Positions 441-36,043 of a DNA stretch of 54,373 nucleotides are shown here, in pieces. The DNA comes from Prochlorococcus sp. AG-436-E22 (GTDB taxonomy: Bacteria; Cyanobacteriota; Cyanobacteriia; PCC-6307; Cyanobiaceae). Position 1 is the stretch's first letter; each line of letters starts with the position of its first letter. A program made the translations under genes and the position numbers. The notes below the pieces were generated by a model that saw only the letters and a program-made list of their open reading frames with translations, made no database searches and was not told the origin of the DNA. The stretch is from contig QCPG01000005.1 in NCBI GenBank assembly GCA_003212615.1, forward strand, positions 1 through 54,373. The letters are read 5' to 3'.

Positions 441-565
441 ACAACCAGTTTTCAAATCTTTATCTATTCTGGAGAAGAAATAGTAATTAATACTGTAGAT
501 ATTGGATCCTTTTTCAACTAAATTATATACATTAGAAAATCCTCACACAATAATTTCTGATAAGT

Positions 566-598
566 AAACACTCTTTTCTCTAAATTAGGGTGTTTTTT
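566..598 (+). terminator. Rho-independent terminator, plus strand
   Basis: AAACACTC (566-573) pairs with GGGTGTTT (588-595) in an 8-bp stem with one T-G pair, a 14-nt loop and a T run to 598. It could end the transcript of the broken small ORF at 258-440. Between 441 and 565 I see only AT-rich sequence. Confidence 0.55.
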
Positions 599-706
599 AT
601 TGCCATAAATCCTTTAAAGAAAAACTGGCACATGTGACAATTTAGTAACATTCCCTTTGTCCCTTCCACGGAAAAGAAATATATGGAATAATTTATAAAT
701 GTGTGA

Positions 707-793
707 AGGAGTGGTTTTACTGAAACAGTGGAAACAAGGAAACACTGGATTTGGCAATGCCAGAAAAGACCTCAAAACTAGGGGTTTTTTTTT
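707..793 (+). ncRNA. Yfr2-family small RNA (candidate)
   Basis: CAGTG (726-730) pairs with CACTG (743-747). The loop carries two GGAAACA-like units (GGAAACAAGGAAACA), which is the hallmark I remember for the 5' stem-loop of the abundant cyanobacterial Yfr2-5 RNAs. A second small hairpin (TGGC 752-755 with GCCA 759-762) follows. Then comes a terminator: ACCTC 769-773 with GGGGT 781-785, and a run of nine T (785-793). A TATAAAT -10-like box at 694-700 would start the RNA near 707, giving about 87 nt, close to the family's usual length. The start site is inferred. Known Yfr2 RNAs act in trans on mRNAs, and the target here is unknown. Confidence 0.72.
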
Positions 794-1133: not shown

Positions 1134-1162
1134 TAGTTAGTTGGTATGAACCTTAAAATGAA

Positions 1163-1234
<72 letters not shown>

Positions 1235-1283
1235 ATATAAGATGAATTTAGCTCTTTAAAGTGCCTTATGACAAGTAAAAAGA

Positions 1284-1958
1284 TTAATTATATTCAAATT
1301 TTGATGGTTCTTGCCAGCCAGATAAAAAACCATTTTTCAACTCAGCTACTTCATCAGCATAATTTAATTCTTCATAACGGTGAGTAATCCATAAAGCTGT
1401 TAAAGGTTTTTCATGGTCACTTGTAAGATTTTTAATAGTTTTTAAAACTTTTAATTGACTAGTTTGATCAAGTAACGCTGTAGGCTCATCCAAAAGAATA
1501 AAATTTTTATTACTAATAAGAGCACATGCAATAGTTAAGCGTTGTTTTTGCCCACCGCTTAAAGTATGAACTGGCCTTTTTTCAAAACCAGTCAATCCCA
1601 CCTGAGCAAGCACATAATCAATTTTTTGTGTAATTTCATAATCACTGATATTTTCATTAACATTAAGCAAAAGTTCACTCCTGCAATTTGGCATCAATAT
1701 TTGATGATCAGGGTTTTGAAATACCATCCCAATATTTGCTTGACAATTAACGATTCCATTTTTGGGTTTAATTATTCCATTTATTAATTTTAAAAGAGTA
1801 CTTTTTCCACTTCCATTTTTACCGACTACCATCCAAAATCCAGTTTTTTTTATTGAGAAATTACATTTAAAAATTAAATTTTCCTTTTTTTCAGTATATG
1901 AAAAAGAGACATCTTTGAAATTTATATAAGGAATTTCATTTTGAAAAGAATCTCTCAT
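1284..1958 (-). CDS. ECF/CbiO-type ABC transporter ATPase
   Basis: ATPase that would power a transporter at the inner face of the plasma membrane. It has Walker A GKNGSGKST (46-54), a Q-loop in the form VFQNPDHQ (79-86) typical of energy-coupling-factor ATPases (CbiO/EcfA), signature LSGGQ (133-137), Walker B FILLDEP (153-159) and the switch His193. At 224 aa it has only the nucleotide-binding domain. No EcfT or substrate-binding S component is nearby, so the substrate (cobalt, nickel, a vitamin) cannot be read from context. It starts 7 nt after the end of the small conserved gene upstream and is probably co-transcribed with it. Confidence 0.85.
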   Translation of the reverse strand: MRDSFQNEIPYINFKDVSFSYTEKKENLIFKCNFSIKKTGFWMVVGKNGSGKSTLLKLINGIIKPKNGIVNCQANIGMVFQNPDHQILMPNCRSELLLNVNENISDYEITQKIDYVLAQVGLTGFEKRPVHTLSGGQKQRLTIACALISNKNFILLDEPTALLDQTSQLKVLKTIKNLTSDHEKPLTALWITHRYEELNYADEVAELKNGFLSGWQEPSKFEYN

Positions 1959-1965
1959 TAATTTT

Positions 1966-2250
1966 TTAGTCTATGTTGAGAGAAAATCCTGGTCTTTTAG
2001 CTCCTCCTGCGACTGATGATTTTTCATATATCTGCACAGAAATAATTTCTTGAGCTCTTACAGCAATTAATTTATCTTTTACTTTGTCACAGCTTAATTC
2101 AATCAATTTTGAAGTTTGTCCAGGTTCAGTAATAGAACTTTTTATATCATCATAAATTCTTTTAACATCCTCGAATTCTTTCTTTTGAATTGAAAGCGGA
2201 AAAGGTGAATATCTGAGACTTAGTTCCAGCGAATACATAATAATGATCAA
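1966..2250 (-). CDS. Conserved cyanobacterial hypothetical protein
   Basis: A soluble protein of about 90 residues with no motif I can name. The C-terminus is Gly/Ala-rich (VAGGAKRPGFSLNID). It looks like a short conserved protein seen in picocyanobacteria, but I cannot give a function. There are two possible starts: TTG at 2250, or ATG at 2238 (MYSLELSLRYSP), which resembles how I remember homologues beginning. An AGGAGGG ribosome site lies 2-3 nt before the TTG and about 14 nt before the ATG, so spacing does not settle it. The ABC ATPase follows 7 nt downstream on the same strand. Confidence 0.6.
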   Translation of the reverse strand: MIIIMYSLELSLRYSPFPLSIQKKEFEDVKRIYDDIKSSITEPGQTSKLIELSCDKVKDKLIAVRAQEIISVQIYEKSSVAGGAKRPGFSLNID

Positions 2251-2392
2251 AACCCTCCTTATATAATAATAAATATTCTTCGACTGAAAGTTATTTTAAA
2301 TTAAATTCTTTTGAGAAAATTATATAAAAGATCTTTAAATACAATTAAGATATAAATAGGAGATGTAATTTTGAAATTTAAATAATCATTTC

Positions 2393-3361
2393 ATGGAAAT
2401 AGCAAATGATATAACTTCTCTGGTTGGGAATACCCCATTAGTTAAATTAAATCGAATCAGAAATTACTTTAATTGTTATCCAGAAATAATAGCCAAGCTT
2501 GAAAGTTTCAACCCCTCAGCTTCTGTTAAAGATCGAATTGCTTATTCAATGTTATGTAAAGCTGAAGAAGAAGGGTTAATAACACCAGATAAAACAACAT
2601 TAATTGAAGCAACAAGTGGAAATACTGGCATCGCATTAGCAATGGTTGCTGCAGCAAAAGGCTATAAATTGATATTAACTATGCCGGATACGATGAGTAT
2701 TGAAAGAAGGGCAATGTTGAGAGCATATGGAGCTGAATTACAGCTAACACCAGGTAAAGACGGGATGAAAGGAGCTTTAGATTTTGCTAATGAGTTGTCT
2801 TCAAGTATTGCCAATAGCTATCAATTTAATCAATTTGAAAACTTTGCTAATCCCGATATTCATGAAAGAACAACGGCGCAAGAAATATGGGCCCAATCTA
2901 ATAACAATTTAGATGGACTAGTTACAGGTGTAGGCACAGGAGGAACAATTACTGGTTGTGCACGTTTTTTGAAAAAAGTTAATCCAAGTTGCAAAATTTA
3001 TGCTGTAGAGCCCAAACAAAGTGCCGTCATTTCAGGAGAAAAAGCAGGATCTCATTCAATTCAAGGAATAGGAGCAGGTTTCGTACCGAAAGTTCTGAAT
3101 ACTAAATTAATAGATGAAATTATTAAAATAGATGATGATGAAGCCTTTTATTATGGACGTTTATTAGCTCGATTAGAAGGTCTTTTATCTGGCATCAGCA
3201 GCGGTGCAGCTTTAGCAGCAACTATAAAAATAGGTGAAAGGAAAGAACTAATGAATAAAAGATTGATAGTAATTCTTCCAAGTTTTGGTGAAAGATATTT
3301 ATCAACAGCAATGTTTGAATCGAACACTTCGATTCAAGCCAGAAAAGATGGTTATCTTTAA
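2393..3361 (+). CDS. cysK: Cysteine synthase A (O-acetylserine sulfhydrylase)
   Basis: PLP enzyme that makes cysteine from O-acetylserine and sulfide, the last step of sulfate assimilation, in the cytoplasm. The PLP lysine is K46 in SASVKDR; the substrate loop SGNTG is at 75-79 and the phosphate-binding GTGGT at 181-185. At 322 aa it has the full family length. A J-domain gene follows 15 nt later on the same strand. cysH, an earlier step of the same pathway, lies far away at 37.4 kb. I favour CysK over CysM because of overall similarity; the two are hard to separate by eye. Confidence 0.93.
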   Translation: MEIANDITSLVGNTPLVKLNRIRNYFNCYPEIIAKLESFNPSASVKDRIAYSMLCKAEEEGLITPDKTTLIEATSGNTGIALAMVAAAKGYKLILTMPDTMSIERRAMLRAYGAELQLTPGKDGMKGALDFANELSSSIANSYQFNQFENFANPDIHERTTAQEIWAQSNNNLDGLVTGVGTGGTITGCARFLKKVNPSCKIYAVEPKQSAVISGEKAGSHSIQGIGAGFVPKVLNTKLIDEIIKIDDDEAFYYGRLLARLEGLLSGISSGAALAATIKIGERKELMNKRLIVILPSFGERYLSTAMFESNTSIQARKDGYL

Positions 3362-3376
3362 TGCCTAATTTTAAAA

Positions 3377-4054
3377 ATGGAAAAAAATTTTTATGAAGAA
3401 TTAGGCCTCGAAAGAAATGCAACCAAGAGTGAAATTAAATCTTCATATCGTTCTTTAGTTAAACAACATCATCCTGATGCAGGCGGAGACAAAGAACGAT
3501 TTCTTGCAATACAAAATGCCTGGGAGACTCTAAATGACCCTGTAAAAAAAGAAAAATACGATAAAGAAATTTTCTCTTCCAGTGCCTCATTTGATTCATT
3601 AAATGAAAATTGGGAAGAGAAATTTAATTCAAAAAAATATAATTCCGCGCTAAAAGACAAAGAAGTGAAAACATGGATTAAAGAAATTTATACTCCGATT
3701 AATAGATTAATTAGCGAAATAATTAAACCTTTGAATAATGAAATAAAAGAACTATCTGCTGATCCTTATGATGACGAATTAATGGAAAATTTTTGCAATT
3801 ACATAAGTTTTTCAAAAAAGAAAATAGAAAAAGTCTATAGAATTTATAATAAAAAATTAGTACCAAAGTCTATTGCAGCTTTAGGATTAGATCTTTATCA
3901 TTGTTTTTCACACGTCAAAGATGCACTATCAGAGCTTGATAGATATACGCAAGGATATGTAGATGATTACTTATTTGGCGGTAAAGAAATGATTAAAGAA
4001 GCAAAAAGAATTCAAACAAAGATGGCTATGGAGAAAAAAAATAAAAATTTTTAG
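3377..4054 (+). CDS. J-domain (DnaJ-like) protein
   Basis: The N-terminal J domain (about 4-63) carries HPD at 32-34, the site that stimulates an Hsp70 ATPase. There is no Gly/Phe region and no zinc-finger CXXCXGXG repeat, so this is a class C J-protein and not canonical DnaJ. The remaining 160 residues are Lys/Glu-rich and helical and probably bind the client or partner, which I cannot name. It lies 15 nt behind cysK, likely on one transcript. Confidence 0.88.
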   Translation: MEKNFYEELGLERNATKSEIKSSYRSLVKQHHPDAGGDKERFLAIQNAWETLNDPVKKEKYDKEIFSSSASFDSLNENWEEKFNSKKYNSALKDKEVKTWIKEIYTPINRLISEIIKPLNNEIKELSADPYDDELMENFCNYISFSKKKIEKVYRIYNKKLVPKSIAALGLDLYHCFSHVKDALSELDRYTQGYVDDYLFGGKEMIKEAKRIQTKMAMEKKNKNF

Positions 4055-4064
4055 ATATAAATTT

Positions 4065-4301
4065 CTATTTAATAAATTCTTTAAGTTGATCTAATTTCAA
4101 CCAAACATCTGGAACAGGTCTGCGCCATCGAACCTGCGCATATTCTTCTTTGACGGAAAGGATCTCTCCAGGACCTTCAAAAACATACTTAGGTAAATCA
4201 TCATCACTTGCAAGCGCCTCAATACTTTTTATGTAATTTGCTCTGTCGACAAAAACTAAGCTTCCTTTCTTGAGAGGTTTCTGTTGAATAGAATCTGTCA
4301 T
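4065..4301 (-). CDS. ndhO: NAD(P)H-quinone oxidoreductase subunit O
   Basis: Small subunit of the cyanobacterial NDH-1 complex, which carries cyclic and respiratory electron flow at the thylakoid. The 78-aa protein has the family core: LKKGSLVFVDRANY near the N-terminus, EGPGEIL in the middle and AQVRWRRPVPDVWL near the end, an SH3-like fold. It converges on the J-domain gene with 10 nt between stops. NdhO is not needed for the core reaction and is reported to modulate the complex. Confidence 0.93.
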   Translation of the reverse strand: MTDSIQQKPLKKGSLVFVDRANYIKSIEALASDDDLPKYVFEGPGEILSVKEEYAQVRWRRPVPDVWLKLDQLKEFIK

Positions 4302-7215: not shown

Positions 7216-7608
7216 TTAAACTGCAAAGGAGCTTCCACAACCGCAAGTTTGAGAAGCATTAGGATTTACAAAATTAAAGCCACCGCCAATTAATTCCTTA
7301 CTAAAATCTAATTGCATTCCATAAATATATAAGAGACTTTTAGGATCACAAACAACTTGAAAGCTTTGAGAAGCTTTTAATGAGTAATCATAAACTTTAT
7401 CATCGGGATTTATTTCATTACTTCCTATAAAATCCATCGTATAACTCATCCCACTACAACCACCTGATCTTACTCCTACCCTGAGTGCTTTTTTATCACT
7501 TTGGCCATTTAATAAATTTGAAATTTGCTCTATAGCATCATTTGTAATTAAGATACCCTTGCCATCATCAGAATTCTTAATTTCCTGCTTAAATTCTACA
7601 TTTTCCAT
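7216..7608 (-). CDS. A-type iron-sulfur carrier (SufA/IscA family)
   Basis: Carries or assembles Fe-S clusters for transfer to apoproteins. The three cluster-ligand cysteines are C51 (SGGCSGMSY) and C122/C124 (QTCGCGSSF). I chose the ATG at 7608 (MENVEFKQ, 130 aa); the upstream in-frame extension of 37 residues is not family-like, and AGGAAA lies 9 nt before this ATG. The gene is far from sufBCDS (44.9 kb), as is common in cyanobacteria. Divergent zds starts about 100 nt away. Confidence 0.92.
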   Translation of the reverse strand: MENVEFKQEIKNSDDGKGILITNDAIEQISNLLNGQSDKKALRVGVRSGGCSGMSYTMDFIGSNEINPDDKVYDYSLKASQSFQVVCDPKSLLYIYGMQLDFSKELIGGGFNFVNPNASQTCGCGSSFAV

Positions 7609-34234: not shown

Positions 34235-36043
34235 TTATCTGAAATTAAGAATTATCAATGCTGGCACTGTCAATGACATTATAAGCGTTAATCCAGCTCC
34301 GTATTTTGCGATATCAAAAAATCTATATCTTCCAGGACCATAAACCATTAAATTTGTTTGATAACCCATTGGAGTCAAGAAAGATTGACTTGCTCCGAAT
34401 AAAACAAGCATTATTAAAGCGCTCGGTGAAATTCCTAAAACATTTGAAAATTCAATAACTACAGGCAAAATTAAAGCAACTGAAGCAGCATTACTTATAA
34501 ATTGAGTAAGAATAACTGTCGATACAAATATTACGACTAGTGCAAAATACAGGGGCATTCCATTAAGAACAAAATTTAAATTGACAGCTATTAAATCTGC
34601 TAATCCTGTTACTTGCATAGCAACACTAAAACATGATAAAGATCCCAACAATAAAATAACGTCTAACCTAATTGATTTTTGGATTTCTGCAGGTCTTAAA
34701 CATCCAAACGCAACCATTGCAATAACTGCTAAAAGAACTGAACCTACTAATGGAATATTAGTAACCGAAGGCAAAACCACCATTCCTATAGCAATTGCAA
34801 TTGATATAGGTTTTTTTATTAAGACAGGTAAATCATCTTCGAATTGATCTAAAACAAGTAAATCATTACTAGCCTGCAAACCTCTTATTGAATCTAACGG
34901 AGCTTGCAATAATAAAACGTCTCCAGCCCTTAAAACAGCTTGGCCTAATCTCTCTTGAACAGTTTGTTGACCTCTTCTCAGAGCCAAAACTGTTGCATTA
35001 TGACGCTGCCTAAATCTTAATTCTCTCAAACTTGCACCAGCTAAAGTTGAGCCAGCTGGTAACAAGGCTTCAAAGGTTTTAGTACCTTCATCATCTGAGA
35101 AAACATTATTTCCGCTTAAAGATGGTTTTTTCTCTCCTAATAAAATGGTATGTTCCTGCTGCAGCCTAAATAAGTCTGCTCTTGTAACGCGGATTATTAA
35201 TCTATCATCCGGTTCAATCTTTCTATCTGCTAAAGGAGGAAGAATAACTTTGCCATTACGTTGTAACTCTAGAACATCAACGTCAAATCGTCTTTGCAAT
35301 CTACTATTTCTTACAGATTGTCCGACTAACTCTGACGAAGAGGGGATAGTAACTTCGGTAAAGTAAATATTCATATCTCCATTTTTAATAAAATCCTTAT
35401 CTCTTCCTCTATCTGGTAAAAGCATGTCAGAAACTAAAATCATATAGATAGTTCCTATCAGCCACACAGGAACTCCAATTGAAGTCAAACTAAATAATTC
35501 CAAAGCTCCATAACCTAATTGCTGACTAATATCACTTACAAGAAGATTTACTGAACTACCTAATAATGTAAGAGTTCCACCTAATAAAGTAGCAAAAGAA
35601 AGAGGTAATAAAACTTTAGATGGTGATATATTTCTGCGCTCGCACCAACCTTCAATCAAAGGTAACAAAGATGCTACTACTGGAGTATTAGGTACAATTC
35701 CAGATAATGGAGCAATCAAAAAAGCTATTAATGAAATTAATTTCCTTGGTGTTCTAATACTTTCTGAAGAAATCAATTCTCTCACTCTGTCTAAGGCACC
35801 ACTTTTAAATAATGCAGAGGAAACTGCAAATAAACCCATAAGAGTAATTAAAGAGGGACTACCAAATCCAGCTAAAGCTTTTTCAGGGGAAAGAACTCCC
35901 GTAGCTATAAATATTCCAACACATAACAAACCTGTCAATTCTGGCGCAATAGTATTTCTTATAAACAAAATTATTGACATTATTAAAACAACTACCGTTA
36001 TAAACGCATCATAATTATTACTAACAACTGCAATTAAATTCAT
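34235..36043 (-). CDS. SLC13-family carrier with two RCK_C domains
   Basis: A 602-aa integral membrane transporter. Membrane helices (e.g. IMSIILFIRNTIAPELTGLLCVGIFI, SGIVPNTPVVASLLP) flank a central cytoplasmic part with two RCK_C domains (about 230-300 and 325-395; ELVGQSVRNSRLQRRFDV, TLAGASLRELRFRQRHN). The mirrored SNAASVALILPVVIE is the second substrate/Na+ motif. Relatives carry sulfate or dicarboxylates with Na+. It is co-directional with the Ktr genes (5-nt gap) and near cysH, so Na+-sulfate uptake is my first guess. Confidence 0.85.
   Translation of the reverse strand: MNLIAVVSNNYDAFITVVVLIMSIILFIRNTIAPELTGLLCVGIFIATGVLSPEKALAGFGSPSLITLMGLFAVSSALFKSGALDRVRELISSESIRTPRKLISLIAFLIAPLSGIVPNTPVVASLLPLIEGWCERRNISPSKVLLPLSFATLLGGTLTLLGSSVNLLVSDISQQLGYGALELFSLTSIGVPVWLIGTIYMILVSDMLLPDRGRDKDFIKNGDMNIYFTEVTIPSSSELVGQSVRNSRLQRRFDVDVLELQRNGKVILPPLADRKIEPDDRLIIRVTRADLFRLQQEHTILLGEKKPSLSGNNVFSDDEGTKTFEALLPAGSTLAGASLRELRFRQRHNATVLALRRGQQTVQERLGQAVLRAGDVLLLQAPLDSIRGLQASNDLLVLDQFEDDLPVLIKKPISIAIAIGMVVLPSVTNIPLVGSVLLAVIAMVAFGCLRPAEIQKSIRLDVILLLGSLSCFSVAMQVTGLADLIAVNLNFVLNGMPLYFALVVIFVSTVILTQFISNAASVALILPVVIEFSNVLGISPSALIMLVLFGASQSFLTPMGYQTNLMVYGPGRYRFFDIAKYGAGLTLIMSLTVPALIILNFR

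Follow-up and report, generated by a model that had tools for sequence, protein, structure and literature searches.

A Yfr2-family small RNA gene in tandem with a Yfr10 gene in Prochlorococcus sp. AG-436-E22

A preliminary description of the window (the whole stretch of DNA analysed, 54,373 bases) proposed a Yfr2-family small RNA at positions 707 to 793, which raises the question of whether this family assignment holds, where the RNA begins, and what stands beside it. The locus is very probably a Prochlorococcus Yfr2-family sRNA gene at 701 to 793 on the forward strand, with its own promoter and a conserved upstream element, a Yfr10 gene directly upstream on the same strand, and a mode of action that by analogy would resemble that described in strain MED4.

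The whole window was compared with 4227 Rfam families, and three RNAs were found at Rfam curated cut-offs: Yfr10 at 531-608 (+), Cyano-1 at 697-766 (+), and a tRNA at 1163-1234 (-), identified by ARAGORN as tRNA-Asn. Cyano-1 (RF01701) is the Rfam name for the Yfr2 family. The preliminary description had named the absence of a covariance-model match as evidence against its proposal; the search returned a significant match of 57.4 bits against a cut-off of 41 (E = 1.9e-7). A second copy in the same genome, on contig C9, scores 80.5 bits. The Cyano-1 model also matches another genome in the collection (G015) at 346826-346893 and 654509-654576. From these coordinates and a Yfr10 match at 346661-346738, this genome is taken as MED4, for which Yfr10 is placed at 346661..346738 (Steglich 2008, PMC2518516), yfr2 at 346828..346921, yfr3 at 654511..654604, yfr4 at 383389..383483, and yfr5 at complement 972088..972176 (Axmann 2005, PMC1242208). 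Because the model finds the mapped yfr2 and yfr3 genes, and the Cyano-1 motif is described as the hallmark of the Yfr2 family (PMC8400943), Cyano-1 can be equated with this family, and the proposed identity is borne out.

According to the published coordinates, all four MED4 genes have as their first base the initial G of GTGTG, with which the conserved 5' motif begins. The equivalent base in the window is 701, and homology to the mapped MED4 ends thus moves the start from 707, as first proposed, to 701. The T run of the terminator stops at 793, giving a predicted RNA of 93 nt; RNAs of the Yfr2 family are abundant transcripts of roughly 89-95 nt. For the promoter and 5' region, 30 loci were entered into an alignment and 27 gave a row with the loop pattern. 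The TATAAAT at 694-700, initially taken for the promoter box, varies among these 27 loci, whereas TAnnnT at 689-694 is largely kept and has the right spacing from 701. Judged by homology, from position and conservation, TAATTT at 689-694 (+) is the probable -10 box. The alignment also shows a conserved block, CTTCCACGGAAAAG, at 663-676 (+), which is absent from the C9 copy of the same genome and partial in MED4 yfr2.

The statement that no protein gene lies within 350 nt on the same strand is valid for open reading frames of at least 60 amino acids, but shorter forward-strand frames of 34 (699-803) and 38 (751-867) amino acids overlap the RNA, and one of 32 amino acids ends at 356. The 34-amino-acid frame is open and begins with ATG, and the stretch could in principle code for a small protein. 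This reading is already contradicted by the alignment and deserves practically no credence: the ATG at 699 is lost in most of the 27 aligned loci, insertions and deletions have lengths not divisible by three, and paired bases change in a compensatory way.

The family structure was derived from an alignment of 47 Yfr2 sequences, taken from a list of 69 distinct ones and all gathered by the loop motif. It consists of a 13-pair outer stem, a 5-pair inner stem, and an 11-pair terminator. In this alignment 92.1% of cells are paired (84.6% in shuffled alignments), 106 cells are changed on both sides (35.9 shuffled), and the covariation score is 0.296 (0.161 shuffled); none of 500 shuffles reaches any of these values, while the 15 pairs with changes on both sides are reached by 5/500 and the 39 further pair types by 7/500, counts that are not probabilities because of relatedness among the sequences and their selection by the loop motif. 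Sliding the partners leaves at most 54.8% paired.

In the window, the 5' motif GTGTGAAGGAG (701-711, +) is almost the complement of CTCCTCACAC, the motif of Yfr1 and Yfr10, and is followed by the 5' arm of the outer stem (712-724, +). The five-pair stem first described around a double GGAAACA is confirmed as CAGTG/CACTG, 726-730 with 743-747. The two GGAAACA copies, at 730-736 and 738-744, lie mostly in the hairpin loop (730-744, +); they are invariant or nearly so in the 47 sequences, which were themselves collected by that loop. Repetition of GGAAACA in the 5' hairpin loop is a reported trait of the Yfr2 family (Axmann 2005, PMC1242208). The 3' arm of the outer stem (750-762, +) is diverged in the window copy. 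It contains the "second hairpin" of the preliminary description, TGGCAATGCCA at 752-762, which is not an element of the family. An intrinsic terminator (763-793, +) completes the RNA, and here the earlier account of a hairpin followed by nine T (785-793) agrees with the sequence.

The window copy can form 11 of the 13 outer, 4 of the 5 inner, and 10 of the 11 terminator pairs. It stands at the weak end of the family but not alone, since 7 of the 47 rows keep 11 or fewer pairs, with lower or equal rank. Its computed minimum-energy fold (-24.7 kcal/mol) resembles neither the family-like fold nor the two-hairpin arrangement described initially, both of which have -23.4 kcal/mol when forced. In this fold the first four bases of the 5' motif are paired, whereas they are free in the family fold. 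The computed probability of the loop stem is 0.15 in the window copy, 0.55 in MED4 yfr4, and 0.98-1.0 in the five other copies tested. With a minimum-energy fold that differs from both forced alternatives and so low a loop-stem probability, the thermodynamic model leaves the choice of fold undecided; comparison with relatives favours the long stem.

The gene upstream, overlooked in the preliminary description, is a Yfr10 sRNA gene (531-608, +) that matches the whole RF02362 model with 88 bits against a cut-off of 43. Its motif AATCCTCACACA (538-549) lies unpaired within a predicted hairpin and equals the otherwise ultraconserved ACTCCTCACACA but for one base, with AATCC where the motif has ACTCC. 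Because the exact Yfr10 motif ACTCCTCACAC (Steglich 2008, PMC2518516) is missed by this one base, membership in the family rests on the covariance model. There are 92 bases from the end of Yfr10 to 701, and the tandem as a whole spans 263 nt (531-793). The genome, 66.5% complete, holds a second pair on contig C9, with Yfr10 at 35437-35518 and Cyano-1 at 35585-35652, as well as Yfr1 at 7489-7542 of the same contig. Such tandems are in print: yfr10, yfr12, and yfr18 are reported to adjoin yfr2, yfr4, and yfr5, the motifs to be complementary, and Yfr10 and Yfr2 to come from a 270-nt precursor (Steglich 2008, PMC2518516), and Yfr10 homologs are described upstream of Yfr2 homologs in high-light strains (Lambrecht 2019, PMC6778093). 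Several other loci (L097, L121, and L126 among them) have a Yfr10 with two or three motif changes upstream of an intact Yfr2, as if constraint were weaker on some copies.

The departures from the family in the 3' arm and the Yfr10 motif might be sequencing or amplification errors, given an incomplete assembly of 60 contigs and 66.5% completeness with the window at a contig start. This is quite unlikely, as the arm is partly diverged in a similar manner in the closest locus found, that of genome G042.

The duplex of the window Yfr10 with the 5' end of the neighbouring Yfr2 is computed at -12.9 kcal/mol and is not significant, being equalled by 119/2000 shuffled Yfr10 sequences and 110/3292 window tiles; complementarity within the window's own pair was therefore dropped as proof. 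The unpaired 5' motif is nearly complementary to the Yfr1 motif, and this 5' end gives -18.0 kcal/mol with the Yfr1 of its own genome and -17.5 kcal/mol with the C9 Yfr10. Across 74 pairs, the idea that a Yfr10 and the adjacent Yfr2 are adapted to each other was rejected, with a cognate mean of -16.43 versus -16.56 kcal/mol for swapped partners and 1916/2000 permutations as good or better. These pairs are those of 75 distinct segments that have a Yfr10-like motif with at most 4 mismatches (L082 had 5), two viral loci having been excluded beforehand, and they give no estimate of pairing frequency because the loci were fetched as Yfr2 or Yfr10 matches. The copies look interchangeable, as parts of one shared network and not as private couples.

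A further explanation is that the window pair is a drifting or decaying duplicate, with the intact C9 pair and Yfr1 doing the work while the Yfr10 motif and the Yfr2 stem lose constraint. The changed Yfr10 motif, the diverged 3' arm with its altered computed fold, and the intact second pair in the same genome would all suit such decay. It is nevertheless unlikely, given that the loop, the 5' motif, the terminator, the -10 box, and the upstream 13-base element are all kept, that 11 of the 13 outer pairs still form, and that the 5' end retains its pairing with Yfr1 and the C9 Yfr10 at the energies given above. Highly doubtful, too, is the idea that one tandem pair has become uncoupled in this lineage. 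On that view, the weakened Yfr10 motif and the two competing folds of Yfr2 would make the pair a changed, perhaps bistable, switch beside the intact one; this has little support, and the appearance may be drift or assembly error. The preferred reading remains that of an ordinary Yfr2-family gene.

The 13-base element, ATGTGACAATTTA, is a conserved promoter element that tags Yfr2 genes; in the window it reads ATGTGACARTTWA and occupies 632-644 (+), 69 bases upstream of 701. Each of six genomes has two copies, and a backward control had no match there. In a set of 101 same-genus genomes, 74 have the element, at 102 places in all, whereas the control matched at 2. All 102 places were inspected, including MED4 yfr4 and the C9 copy. 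At 99 of them the next 130 bases downstream contain a Yfr2 5' motif or loop, the canonical double loop being present at 88 of these, and the 5' motif, where found, begins 65-70 bases from the element start. The three exceptions are L249, which is without Yfr2; L274, which shares bases with a true site on the other strand; and L275, which is cut by a contig end. At L274 (G077, C1:50385-50408) the two overlapping element copies lie on opposite strands, and a Yfr2-like gene stands in front of just one of them.

Within MED4, only yfr2 and yfr4 have the exact element; the match is near at yfr5 and poor at yfr3. The yfr3 region (L082) has no upstream Yfr10-like motif within 4 mismatches and no exact 13-base element, and for this reason yfr3 is probably under different control. 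The protein PMM1637 is reported to control two MED4 yfr2 homologs, and its motif, CGRE1, is described as occurring nowhere else in that genome (Lambrecht 2019, PMC6778093). The 13-base element is possibly a CGRE1 site.

Of 200 same-genus genomes, 178 have Cyano-1 and 170 have Yfr10; among the 66 with completeness of 90% or more and contamination of 5% or less, each is present in 64. A tandem with both exact motifs at tandem spacing was found in 60/68 same-genus genomes and in 0/332 genomes from 58 other genera of the family, a zero that holds for the exact form only because the pattern misses degenerate pairs, that of the window included. The 13 named loci that have a 39-base Yfr2 stretch in common with the window are all labelled Prochlorococcus. 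A phage-borne Yfr2 was considered and rejected: an 18-base loop pattern led to two viral contigs, and no Rfam family was above cut-off in the stretches examined.

The positions of yfr2 genes have been described as not fixed (PMC1242208). The window locus has a partly conserved place, since its bases 1-1177 match G042 at 88% and 1161-4187 at 96%, and a pair in G171 likewise lies beside tRNA-Asn and the same genes. G042 has about 1.1 kb extra between the two matched blocks, beside tRNA-Asn. This insert (L154:3028-4138), between Yfr2 and the tRNA gene, contains two frames, one of 103 amino acids (3496-3807) made up of three near-identical repeats and one of 77 amino acids.

A 14-base stretch of the window's hairpin arm occurs in 81/200 genomes, and a spread of this arm was considered. 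The 20 loci read (L129-L148) all fall in one other conserved gene region, presumably that of the ATP synthase subunit I gene, and the recurrence is therefore taken as coincidence. Among the listed places checked, only that of the window lies in Yfr2, and spread was rejected; a longer degenerate pattern of the arm found nothing in the named genomes.

How the RNA might act is suggested by work on MED4, where pull-down, footprint, reporter, and RNase E data are reported (Lambrecht 2019, PMC6778093). There Yfr2 pulls down Yfr1 and Yfr10 and blocks their binding to ppa mRNA, relieves repression of a reporter by Yfr1 in Escherichia coli, and is shielded by Yfr1 and Yfr10 from RNase E; in the reciprocal pull-down with Yfr10 as bait, Yfr3 to Yfr5 were clearly enriched but Yfr2 itself only slightly. 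By analogy, the single-stranded 5' end of Yfr2 would base-pair with CUCCUCACAC, the motif of Yfr1 and Yfr10, and keep these RNAs off their mRNA targets, and the GGAAACA loop may bind other RNAs. Extended to the window, the MED4 work predicts that its Yfr2 is transcribed and sequesters Yfr1 and Yfr10, and that it would be controlled by a GntR protein like PMM1637 and cleaved by RNase E. Evidence against this explanation comes from the Yfr10 motif change, the weak -12.9 kcal/mol duplex, the minimum-energy fold foreign to the family, the lack of neighbour preference, and the slight enrichment of Yfr2 with Yfr10 bait.

Family membership, gene order, conserved structure, and a conserved promoter element are demonstrated for the window locus. 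The copy is an ordinary Prochlorococcus Yfr2, and as a finding it is of small importance, since publications already cover the family, its tandem arrangement with Yfr10, and the antagonism between the RNAs. The corrected start and promoter, an element that tags Yfr2 genes genus-wide, and the null result on adaptation between Yfr10 and Yfr2 neighbours are of modest use. Compared with the Yfr2-Yfr5 family of MED4 (yfr2-yfr5), the window copy is alike in predicted length, promoter spacing, terminator, double GGAAACA loop, and 5' GTGTG...AGGAG motif, and probably in the long stem, and differs in the diverged 3' arm of its outer stem, with another fold computed to be 1.3 kcal/mol better. With the MED4 yfr10-yfr2 and yfr12-yfr4 tandems (Steglich 2008; Lambrecht 2019) it shares gene order, strand, and similar spacing, and its Yfr10 motif differs by one changed base. 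Its 263 nt are close to the 270-nt RNA listed as the Yfr10 and Yfr2 precursor of yfr10-yfr2, whereas in sequence yfr12-yfr4 is marginally closer to the window than yfr10-yfr2 (78% versus 77% in BLAST).
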